In this document: positions 13,209 through 16,069 of the stretch, piece after piece
How positions within the stretch are numbered: the first letter of the stretch is position 1
How the letters are laid out: the number at the start of each line of letters is the position of its first letter
The notes under the pieces: model-generated
The model's input: only the letters and a program-made list of their open reading frames with translations
Databases searched by the model: none
Told to the model about the DNA's origin: nothing
Translations under genes and position numbers: made by a program
Source: Cytobacillus oceanisediminis 2691
GTDB taxonomy: Bacteria; Bacillota; Bacilli; Bacillales; Cytobacillaceae
Assembly (NCBI RefSeq): GCF_007678455.1
Contig: NZ_VEEP01000002.1
Span: 291,535 to 355,534, forward strand
Direction of reading: 5' to 3'
Length of the DNA stretch: 64,000 bases

Positions 13209-13245
13209 ATTTTAAAAAGAAAACAGCCACTTCAGTAGCGGCTGT
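13209..13245 (-). terminator. Terminator after the HesB-like gene
   Basis: ACAGCC / GGCTGT hairpin followed by TTTCTTTTT on the minus strand, beginning right at the final TGA of the HesB-like reading frame. Its placement supports the full-length frame as the ancestral gene. Confidence 0.75.
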
Positions 13246-13499
13246 CAGCAAAAATTCTTATTTGTCAGTACAAAACCACCTTTTACATAGTCAATTGTCA
13301 CCGTTTTTGCTTCATATTCTATTGAAGGATCCACTGCGACCTTGATTCCATCGACGAGCATGATCTCGTCATCTTCGTCCGGCTCATCCAGAGCCAGTCC
13401 AATTCTGGAGCTCCTTCAGCTGATGCCAGCGAAGTAAAGTCGGATGCATGGAATCTGTTCCTTCATTAGTTGCTCGCGTGCGTTGTCCGTTATCTTCAT
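13245..13499 (-). pseudogene. HesB/IscA-like gene with one in-frame TGA (pseudogene or selenoprotein)
   Basis: One continuous reading frame of 84 codons is broken only by TGA at codon 28 (13418-13416). Before it the product reads MKITDNAREQL...CIRLYFAGIS, after it RSSRIGLALDEP, a DGIKVAVDP segment, and it ends GGFVLTNKNFC. This is the small HesB-like family (often labelled 'adhesin' in Bacilli), in which the residue after FAGxx is a conserved Cys, and in some species selenocysteine encoded by TGA. The ATG overlaps the phosphatase gene stop (ATGA) and a terminator follows. Against a working Sec codon, the next residues (RSS) depart from the usual Gly/Pro pattern. I rate a decayed gene slightly more likely than a selenoprotein. 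Confidence 0.65.
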
Positions 13500-13924
13500 T
13501 TTTTCTCAGGGAAGATTCTTTCAAGGGATGTAATCAATTGTGAATCCAAATTCAGTACTTCGCGGACTTCTCTTGCCTTCGACTTCGCTTCCTCGATGCT
13601 GTCTGCTCGATTCAGCTTTAGCAAAGTACCTGCGGCCAGCGTGCCTGTTCTCGTTCTGCCCGTGGAGCAGTGGAAGTAAATATTTTTTCCGGACTCGTAA
13701 GCAGTTGCCACCTCATCCATAGCCTTTTTGACCGACTCATCCTGCTGTGAGTCATTATCAAACATTGGCAGGTGGGTGCGTGGATATTCATACTCCCCTT
13801 CTTTATTTTCCGCACGCAGATCATACACCATATCGATTTTTTCATTTTCAAGTAATTCGGGGATTGCGTTTTCGCCCCCGATAAAAATCCTGCCTGGAAT
13901 TAACGCCTGATAGTTCTTGCTCAT
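13496..13924 (-). CDS. Dual-specificity/tyrosine protein phosphatase
   Basis: A 142-aa cysteine-dependent phosphatase of the DSP fold with the P-loop HCSTGRTRTG: nucleophile C86 and phosphate-binding R92 (CX5R). D56 or D58, upstream in the FDND segment, may serve as general acid. The substrate is unknown. It lies downstream of arsC behind a hairpin and upstream of the HesB-like gene, whose start it overlaps. It has its own strong AAGGAGG ribosome site. Its place in an arsenic operon is unusual; arsenate and phosphate mimicry is a possible link, but that is speculation. Confidence 0.85.
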   Translation of the reverse strand: MSKNYQALIPGRIFIGGENAIPELLENEKIDMVYDLRAENKEGEYEYPRTHLPMFDNDSQQDESVKKAMDEVATAYESGKNIYFHCSTGRTRTGTLAAGTLLKLNRADSIEEAKSKAREVREVLNLDSQLITSLERIFPEKK

Positions 13925-13975: not shown

Positions 13976-14395
13976 TTATTTCCCTGTCTCAGCAAATGTC
14001 TTGATACGGTCACCGATTTGATCACGCACTCGCTGGAACACGGCCCACTTTTCTTCATCGGTTCCCTCAGCCTTCGCCGGGTCATCAAAGCCCCAGTGTT
14101 CACGTCTAACATGCGGTGGTGTTGTTGGGCAATGCTCGTCCGCATGGCCGCAAAGTGTAACAACAAGGTCAGAGTTGTTCAGGATTTCAGAATCAATAAC
14201 ATCGGAAGTGTGGCCTTTAATATCGATGCCGATTTCGTGCATAGCATTGATGGCATTGGGATTCAAGCCGTGCGCCTCAAGACCGGCACTCTTAACTTCC
14301 CACTCGTCACCCAAGTATTTTTTTGCCCAGCCTTCAGCCATCTGGCTTCTGCAAGAGTTTCCCGTACATAGGAAGTAGATTGTTTTTTTAGCCAT
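13976..14395 (-). CDS. arsC: Thioredoxin-dependent arsenate reductase
   Basis: ArsC reduces arsenate to arsenite in the cytoplasm, passing electrons through a cysteine relay to thioredoxin. At 139 aa it has the family length and all key residues: P-loop CTGNSCRS with C10 and R16, then C82 and C89 in LCGHADEHC, which form the relay disulfide of the S. aureus/B. subtilis type. It follows arsB by 18 bases, so the arsenite it makes can be pumped out by the neighbouring transporter. Confidence 0.96.
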
Positions 14396-14413: not shown

Positions 14414-15709
14414 TTAGATAATTAGCAACCAAATATATAGACCTACCAATGTGATGAACAAAGTAGGAATGGTTAAGATAATTCCTGTTTTAAAATAAGT
14501 GCCCCAAGAAATTTTGACGCCTTTCAATGAAAGGACATGCAGCCACAATAGTGTTGCCAGTGATCCAATCGGCGTGATTTTCGGTCCTAGATCAGAGCCT
14601 ATGACATTCGCATATATCAACGCTTCGCGGATGACACCTGTTGTGTTAGTATCCGCAATTGCCAGCGCATCAATCATGACAGTTGGCATATTGTTCATGA
14701 TTGAAGAAAGGATCGCAGCGATGAAGCCCATACCGATTGTAGCAACAAACAAGCCCTGGTCAGCCGCTGCCTGGATGACATCAGCAAGGATGTTTGTCAA
14801 TCCTGCGTTACGCAGTCCGTAAACGACTACATACATGCCAATTGAGAAGAATACAATCGCCCATGGCGCGCCTTTTACGACAGTGGAGGTATGGACAGCC
14901 GGACTTCTTCTCGCCATCATCAAGAAGAAAATCGCAACAACCCCGGCAATGAAGGAAACAGGGATGTTCAGGAATTCACTGCCGAAATAGCCGGCAAGCA
15001 GGACGGCCAACACAATCCATGATAAGCGGAACATCTTCATATCCTTGATTGCCTCAGCGGGCTTTTTCAAATCTGACATCTCGTAATTTTTCGGAATGCT
15101 CTTTCGGAAAAATAAATACAAGACCAGAATACTTGCACCCAGCGAGAAGAAGTTCGGCACGATCATGCGTGATGCATATTCGACGAATCCAATATTAAAG
15201 TAGTCAGCAGAAACAATGTTCACCAGGTTGCTGACGATAAGCGGCAATGATGTCGTATCGGCAATGAACCCGCTCGCCATGATGAATGGAAACACCATTT
15301 TTTCTTCGAATTTCAGGTTCCGCACCATCGCCAGTACAATTGGCGTCAAAATCAATGCTGCACCGTCGTTTGCGAACAATGCCGCTACGCCTGCACCCAG
15401 CAGGGTAACGTAGACAAACATCCTGACTCCGTTTCCTTTTGCAGCACGCGCCATATGTAAAGCCGCCCATTCGAAAAATCCGATTTCATCGAGTATAAGT
15501 GAGATAATAATCAGTGCAATAAATGTAAGGGTTGCATTCCAGACGATTCCTGTAACGTCGATTACGTCCTGGAAAGTAACAACACCAAATAATAAAGCGA
15601 TTAGCGCCCCACCGATGGCAGACCAGCCAATGCTAAGCCCTTTTGGCTGCCAAATGACCAATGTCAGCGTCACGAGAAAGATCAGTGAAGCAATGATTGC
15701 TGTCGACAA
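14414..15709 (-). CDS. arsB: Arsenite efflux permease ArsB
   Basis: A 431-aa polytopic membrane protein of the ArsB/NhaD superfamily with about 12 helices, matching E. coli ArsB in length. Typical segments are [15 protein letters not shown] (about 110-124), [19 protein letters not shown] and [11 protein letters not shown]. It exports arsenite or antimonite using the proton-motive force. It lies between arsR (15 bases upstream) and arsC (18 bases downstream), a standard arsRBC order. Confidence 0.95.
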
Positions 15710-15724
15710 TTTTCATACCCTCCG

Positions 15725-16069
15725 TTATTCACAGGAAATCCGTTTTCCCTGCTTTTCTAGTTCTATTAATTTTTCATCCTGGCTTGGCAGTGCATCCAAG
15801 AGCAATTGAACAAAATCGAAATGCTCAAATTGCCGGTTCAGTGAGTAAAATATCCACTGGCCCCTCCTGCTTTCTTTTACCAGACCTGCGTCTTTCAGCT
15901 TACGGATATGCTGGCTGATCGCCGGCTGGCTCGCCTCGAATATTGCCACAAACTCACACACGCAGCAATCCTGATCAGCCAGAATCCTCATCATCGTCAG
16001 ACGAGTCTTATCACCAAGCAGCTTCAGCAAAGCAGCAGCCTGATCCATTTCAATACTTTGCTTAATCAA
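15725..16069 (-). CDS. arsR: ArsR-family repressor of the arsBC operon
   Basis: A 114-aa winged-helix repressor that should leave DNA when arsenite binds. The metal site is DCCVCEF with C35, C36 and C38, equivalent to the ELCVCDL motif. The recognition helix is SQPAISQHIRKLKDAGLV. The TTG at 16069 has GGAGAG five bases upstream and is preferred to ATG 16048, which lacks a site. It heads the leftward arsR-arsB-arsC operon and is divergent from a second arsR. Confidence 0.92.
   Translation of the reverse strand: MIKQSIEMDQAAALLKLLGDKTRLTMMRILADQDCCVCEFVAIFEASQPAISQHIRKLKDAGLVKESRRGQWIFYSLNRQFEHFDFVQLLLDALPSQDEKLIELEKQGKRISCE

Follow-up and report, generated by a model that had tools for sequence, protein, structure and literature searches.

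The last gene of an arsenic resistance (ars) operon in a soil bacterium, Cytobacillus oceanisediminis 2691, carries an apparent mid-gene stop codon that, judging from comparative sequence evidence, is almost certainly read as selenocysteine (Sec). This gene, termed hesB, lies in a stretch of 64,000 nucleotides (the window) and encodes a small HesB/IscA-like protein. We have very little doubt that hesB is a selenoprotein gene rather than a gene in decay, and its product is probably a selenoprotein that works in arsenic detoxification. Given that the protein does contain Sec, participation of hesB in the arsenic response appears quite likely.

Eleven HesB-like selenoproteins were counted in the mid-2000s (PMC1794560, available text), and the accessible portion of PMC9312934 lists such proteins under TIGR01911. 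A 2026 review (PMC13188914), in the portion available, gives their motif as UxGP and describes their functions as largely uncharacterised. The occurrence of a HesB-like gene and a phosphatase gene in an ars operon was already known from Bacillus sp. CDB3; the new point is the ars-operon context of the Sec form. No paper joining this form with ars operons was found in the open-licence literature, outside of which most subscription journals lie.

The in-frame TGA of hesB and its conservation

The hesB frame comprises 255 bases on the minus strand (13499-13245; Table 1). An initial annotation had given these coordinates exactly, with the strand unstated, and had correctly placed the ATG (13499-13497) over the stop codon of the gene upstream, which encodes a phosphatase. 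It had also located the final stop at a terminator, and the terminal TGA (13247-13245) is indeed overlapped by a 10-bp terminator-like hairpin; four sites matching this pattern were found in the region, compared with 3.1 expected in shuffles. A single in-frame TGA (13418-13416) specifies residue 28 and is followed by RSSRIGLALDEP. As proposed in that annotation, it occupies the Cys/Sec position, opposite the Cys that is conserved in relatives. Because the terminal codon varies among the genus copies that have RSS after the in-frame TGA (Table 1), the TGA at the end of the gene is regarded as a stop.

Table 1. Positions of hesB, its sequence features and the other ars operon genes in the window.
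Feature	Position	Strand	Supporting observations
arsR, ArsR/SmtB-family regulator, first operon gene	15725..16069	-	Relatives found by searching with it
arsB, arsenite efflux transporter	14414..15709	-	Relatives annotated 'arsenic transporter' or ArsB
arsC, thioredoxin-type arsenate reductase	13976..14395	-	Relatives annotated arsC
DSPc dual-specificity protein phosphatase gene, directly upstream of hesB	13496..13924	-	Adjacent in 18/18 genus copies
hesB(Sec), predicted 84-residue HesB/IscA-like selenoprotein gene, last in ars operon	13245..13499	-	TGA conservation, dN/dS, AlphaFold2, Foldseek
In-frame TGA, predicted Sec residue 28	13416..13418	-	Kept in 18/18 genus copies (own included); opposite Cys in Cys forms
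Candidate SECIS hairpin CTGGCTC-TGGAT-GAGCCGG, starting 18 nt past TGA	13379..13397	-	Within bSECIS constraints of PMC13188914
Codon of C-terminal Cys84 (TGC, last sense codon)	13248..13250	-	Cys-final in 78/78 Sec forms and 24/29 Cys forms
Terminal TGA, read as stop	13245..13247	-	TAA/TAG in 5 and TGA in 4 of the 9 RSS copies
Intrinsic-terminator-like hairpin, 10 bp plus T tail, overlapping hesB stop	13222..13246	-	Pattern match

Profile searches against NCBIfam returned NF038090 (IscA_HesB_Se) as the best match to the window protein (E 5e-12; 46 bits, below the curated cut-off of 85). TIGR01911 (HesB_rel_seleno), the family with which comparison had been suggested initially, also matches, at 28.8 bits against a curated cut-off of 66.35. 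Like the members of these families, the window protein has a small HesB/IscA domain with Sec predicted at the conserved Cys; unlike them it scores under both cut-offs and has URSS where the listed motif is UxGP.

The genome that contains the window (4.9 Mb, listed as 100% complete) encodes the components for Sec decoding that the initial annotation had named as worth seeking. Matches were found for SelB (361.7 bits), SelA (568.4 bits) and SelD (397.3 bits), the gene for the last of these itself containing an in-frame TGA, together with two tRNA-Sec genes carrying a UCA anticodon. The two tRNA-Sec genes are situated about 10.6 kb apart (G000:C332:395489-395581 and 406070-406162). The same genome has three HesB-like genes, hesB among them, each with a single TGA at the same site, and one Cys-containing IscA-like gene (paralog L002) whose product bears SCGCG at its C terminus. 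One of the two further TGA genes (L001, G000:C455:11348-11578; FGGFGUGGPQIGLALEEP), which has similar genes in several genus genomes, adjoins a substrate-binding-protein gene that is TupA-like by eye instead of ars genes. The other (L003, G000:C22:211553-211807) is divergent and shares a contig with selA, the two being about 15 kb apart.

A search of 21 genus genomes, the window's included, yielded matches in 20. The window gene or an ortholog of it (56-99% identity) is present in 18, two have a paralog only, and the one without a match is listed at 66% completeness. The TGA is found at the same codon in all 18 copies, the window's included. Since every one of these copies keeps the TGA and three HesB-like genes of a single genome share the site, the codon is not there by chance. 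The residues that follow it fall into two types: URSS(K/R/N) in nine of the 18 copies, among them the window's, and UG(S/R)P in the other nine.

Pairwise dN/dS values, calculated with our own Nei-Gojobori script, range from 0.06 to 0.24 in 33 of the 36 pairs of RSS copies; of the others, two are saturated at synonymous sites and one is nearly identical. For the portion of the window gene past the TGA, dN is 0.02-0.18 where dS is 0.15-1.65, leaving aside the near-identical copy L028. These rates indicate that purifying selection is acting on both sides of the TGA. The genome of the same species that carries L028 (G006) has an apparent frameshift in the phosphatase gene, which is either real or a sequencing error.

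A pseudogene with a chance stop codon would be in keeping with RSS in place of the usual GxP after Sec, with scores under the curated family cut-offs, and with two damaged relatives, namely a genus ortholog (L044, G007) with an apparent N-terminal frameshift before the TGA, real or a sequencing error, and a family-level relative (L240) with TAA at the site. The initial annotation had likewise read RSS as a sign of decay, a reading that does not survive the finding of these residues in half of the genus copies. Together with the TGA in 18/18 copies, the low dN/dS, the constraint on both sides of the TGA and the hairpin retained at synonymous sites (see below), this leads us to reject decay, whose likelihood we rate as negligible.

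A candidate SECIS hairpin and the distribution of Sec and Cys forms

A candidate SECIS hairpin (Table 1) has a stem of 7 bp and a loop of 5 nt, UGGAU, with G at loop position 2 and a distance of 25 nt from the UGA to the loop. Folding of this region, a 33-nt stretch, gives -12.2 kcal/mol. According to the available text of PMC13188914, bSECIS elements have a loop of 3-9 nt with G as its first or second base, a stem of 4-16 bp, a UGA-to-loop distance of 16-37 nt and an MFE of at most -7.5 kcal/mol, and the window hairpin falls within all of these limits. A different hairpin (GCTC-CAGA/TCTG-GAT-GAGC) had been drawn in the initial annotation. Its loop of 11 nt exceeds the 3-9 nt given in the accessible part of that review, and its CAGA/TCTG arm is, by eye, broken in several orthologs; it was discarded as a SECIS candidate in favour of the conserved hairpin at 13397-13379.

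To compare the hairpin among relatives, 109 HesB genes were used (78 with TGA, 29 with Cys, one with Glu and one with TAA at the site), and 200 synonymous recodings were made of each gene. Sec forms gave a mean z of -2.42, with p<0.05 in 65 of 78, compared with a mean of -0.2 and p<0.05 in four of 29 for Cys forms. The two distributions differ by a Mann-Whitney p of 1e-11, a value that overstates independence because the rows are related. The 13 Sec forms that miss p<0.05 include L032 (p 0.37), a member of the same group as the window gene. The same preference is visible in individual codons past Sec, which in Sec forms are GCT in 72/72 Ala codons at +8, CTG in 77/78 Leu codons at +9, GAT in 76/77 Asp codons at +10 and GAG in 73/74 Glu codons at +11, and which in Cys forms are scattered over synonyms. 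Furthermore, at least six of the seven pairs are kept in 25/25 distinct Sec-form stems, some of which have changed on both sides, compared with 1/29 Cys-form stems. These comparisons indicate that the predicted SECIS hairpin is kept in Sec forms and is lost in most Cys forms.

The counts for the hairpin and for the C terminus exclude L081-L087, L089 and L091, which come from the same genomes as Mesobacillus rows already included, as well as a distant IscA-like gene (L092) and the frameshifted L044. L198, which has Glu at this position, and L240, which has TAA, are counted as neither U nor C, and L088 and L177 are identical and are both counted. An Rfam scan of four loci gave no match at the gathering score, a result of little weight because Rfam may hold no such hairpin family. 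In L240 (G030) the TAA stands at the Sec codon and the SECIS hairpin sequence is still there; its close relative L209 has TGA.

The codon at this site was also compared with the presence of selA in 76 genomes, as a test of consistency rather than a survey, the loci having been chosen partly by TGA status. All 56 genomes with a TGA form have selA above the cut-off, as does one (G201) of the 18 order-level genomes whose opened loci are all non-TGA (17 Cys, 1 Glu). It is present in addition in G052, with a Cys form, and in G030, with TAA at the site. This pattern suggests that the Sec and Cys versions follow the presence of selA. The comparison of the codon in close strains, proposed at the outset, found TGA in all 18 genus copies; genomes with Cys homologs for the most part have no selA. 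A tree of 119 rows, built from few columns and with 36 of 115 forks open, gives no count of Sec/Cys switches.

The overall interpretation offered by the initial annotation can now be divided. Its proposal of a selenoprotein is upheld by the decoding machinery, the TGA, the selection, the SECIS hairpin and the Cys homologs; the drawn hairpin and the suspicion of decay are not. It made no mention of the ars operon around hesB.

Arsenic resistance genes around hesB

The minus-strand gene order in the window is arsR-arsB-arsC-phosphatase-hesB. In the nine RSS copies arsB and arsC directly precede the phosphatase gene, and the order arsR-arsB-arsC-arsD-arsA-phosphatase-hesB occurs in 7/7 UG(S/R)P copies for which a wider stretch was read, the other two having been read 1.5 kb out. 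The gene spacing, the terminator and what is known of ArsR suggest that hesB is co-transcribed with its neighbours under ArsR control. Three genus genomes contain another HesB-like TGA gene (L047, L048 and L049), in the order arsA-hesB-phosphatase-trxB.

A comparable arrangement is described in the ars1 operon of Bacillus sp. CDB3, arsRYCDATorf7orf8, in which orf7 is HesB-like and orf8 encodes a DSP (PMC4562236 and, alike, PMC5481582, available text). In the former, Zheng et al. (2013) are cited for the finding that E. coli becomes more resistant to arsenate with orf8, which is however no substitute for arsC. The CDB3 and window operons, as far as the accessible descriptions go, share a HesB-like gene and a dual-specificity phosphatase gene at the 3' end; they differ in that the window operon is without arsD, arsA and trxB and in that its phosphatase gene precedes hesB. 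In the portions of PMC4562236 and PMC5481582 available for this comparison, which is one by description, orf7 and orf8 are not called selenoproteins. A hesB gene is also reported in an Exiguobacterium ars operon (PMC8779447, available text).

To place the window operon in a wider context, we examined 80 Bacillales loci at the family and order levels (76 genomes), chosen among the matches listed so as to cover a range of genera and both TGA and non-TGA forms, and hence not a random sample. Of the 80, 46 have a same-strand core ars gene (arsA, arsB, arsC, arsD or ACR3) no more than 6 kb away (order-level TGA 10/20, order-level non-TGA 15/20, family 21/40), and the count is again 46 at a limit of 1.5 kb. 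By residue, 32 of 61 U forms and 23 of 29 C forms are linked to ars genes, counts that include 10 plasmid loci (nine found with the window HesB protein, L161 with the phosphatase) and L088 and L090, which the 46/80 count leaves out.

Plasmids exhibit the association as well. All 16 plasmid records that matched the window protein were opened, and 15 have an annotated arsA, arsC or arsD in the stretch opened; the sixteenth has trxB, ArsR and ArsI. The five Cytobacillus plasmid records list no gene under the match in the PLSDB table, from which pseudogenes are omitted, and annotation may therefore overlook genes of this kind.

Linkage of this kind could arise if a selenoprotein with no arsenic role were hitchhiking on mobile resistance islands, and the remaining 34 of the 80 loci, where the 6 kb examined contain no core ars gene on the strand of hesB, would accord with that. 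We regard hitchhiking as improbable given that ars-linked hesB genes are same-strand and that the nearest upstream listed gene on that strand, for the 47 of 80 loci having one, is arsA (21), the phosphatase gene (16), arsC (7) or arsD (3), in Sec and Cys forms alike. The annotated ars genes of 15/16 plasmids argue in the same direction.

Of 28 HesB loci examined among the 30 listed from a longer set of matches in a phylum search, 27 lie outside Bacillales, and core ars genes are absent from the 1.5 kb around every one of these 27; Bacillales reference proteins were used at E 1e-6, so that divergent ars genes could escape. The proposition that all HesB-like selenoproteins are arsenic proteins was rejected on this count. 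Some relatives not linked to ars genes (L172, L214, L238; L088, L177) neighbour genes identified by eye as CopA-like (P-type ATPase) or Znu-like (ABC), and from the neighbours of these few the biochemistry of hesB may be wider than arsenic. A search for neighbours common to the non-ars relatives gave small, mixed clusters only.

Several observations concern the wider distribution of these genes. Record JAGGQZ010000017.1 (L081), titled Chryseobacterium sp. ISL-80, has an ars-hesB locus at 90% identity, and its name looks wrong. A phosphatase relative with ~39-40% identity is also encoded on enterobacterial plasmids. In Citrobacter arsenatis plasmid NZ_CP037863.1 (L162) the phosphatase relative is a few kb from arsC, and no HesB is annotated in the stretch opened.

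Possible functions of the window protein

The architectural features of the protein bear on its possible function. An AlphaFold2 model with C for Sec has a mean pLDDT of 89.1 and a pTM of 0.77, with the last four residues averaging 58, and Foldseek matches it best to IscA structures (1x0g_A, E 1.5e-5, query TM 0.70; 1s98_A, E 2.2e-5, query TM 0.75). The window protein is thus predicted to have an IscA-like fold. A C-terminal Cys is present in all 78 Sec forms (Cys-Cys in 60) and in 24 of 29 Cys forms (Cys-Cys in 17). In contrast to those 60 Sec forms, the window protein has a single such Cys, and it also has Cys18, a residue found in four of the nine RSS copies.

We propose that SelB, Sec-tRNA and the SECIS hairpin 18 nt downstream would insert Sec28 at the UGA at 13418. 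The UGA that closes the gene would act as a stop; by our own count, only the terminator hairpin follows it, too close for the SECIS model. As the last product of the operon arsR-arsB-arsC-DSP-hesB, the protein could use Sec28 and its C-terminal Cys as a soft-ligand site that binds arsenite or thiol adducts, relaying or redox-cycling them, and arsenite would thereby be kept from poisoning thiol and Fe-S proteins until its export by ArsB. Among the possible modes of action we tentatively favour a site of this composition that binds or passes on As(III). Because the window protein has a single C-terminal Cys, a three-ligand arsenite site would need Cys18 or a partner protein. Both this feature and the large number of relatives that lie elsewhere than in ars operons weaken the case for a strict arsenite-chaperone model. 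In kind only, the protein resembles SaoC and other metalloid-linked selenoproteins, which, in the accessible text of PMC13188914, pair Sec with a Cys near the C terminus and imply metal or metalloid handling; they belong to different families.

Two other functions were considered for the Sec protein. The first is that of an A-type Fe-S carrier, which would rebuild or deliver Fe-S clusters damaged by arsenite and would handle no arsenic itself, with Sec28 and the C-terminal Cys holding the cluster or iron. IscA has a C-terminal Cys-x-Cys and three Cys ligands, and Sec28 stands where, we presume, IscA has a ligand Cys. The predicted fold is shared with the A-type carriers IscA, SufA and ErpA, and weak profile matches to IscA and ErpA models were obtained. 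Unlike these carriers, the window protein has Sec for Cys and ends in Cys, with no C-terminal Cys-x-Cys of the sort seen in the SCGCG of paralog L002. Sec is an unusual Fe-S ligand, and the genome already has a normal Cys IscA-like protein. A 2.42-fold increase in hesB under DMA, reported for a marine bacterium (PMC6426599, available text), would suit a carrier of this type, which on balance we consider unlikely.

The second is a redox partner, fed by thioredoxin, in which a Sec28/C-terminal Cys selenenylsulfide couple would re-reduce ArsC or the phosphatase, or reduce As(V) adducts. The phosphatase neighbour is of the DSP type, whose mechanism is thiol-based, and in Cytobacillus and Sporosarcina these operons include trxB; in addition, the available text of PMC13188914 regards most uncharacterised selenoproteins as redox proteins. 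Against this, there is no thioredoxin-like fold among the good Foldseek matches and no CxxC-like spacing in the protein, and one hesB operon (L157) has no annotated arsC within the stretch that was opened. We judge a redox partner to be about as doubtful as an Fe-S carrier.

The proposed handling of As(III) by Sec28 and the C-terminal Cys may extend beyond the window. Possibly, Bacillales ars operons contain a dedicated HesB-fold selenoprotein that, together with a partner phosphatase, binds As(III) or passes it on through its Sec and C-terminal Cys, and a Cys version, often Cys-Cys, in species without Sec decoding. If true, this would provide a function for part of a selenoprotein family that the 2026 review, in its accessible text (PMC13188914), describes as largely uncharacterised. 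The recurrent place of hesB in Bacillales ars operons, with Sec and Cys versions that appear to track selA, opens the function of these proteins to direct testing and would tie selenium supply to arsenic tolerance.
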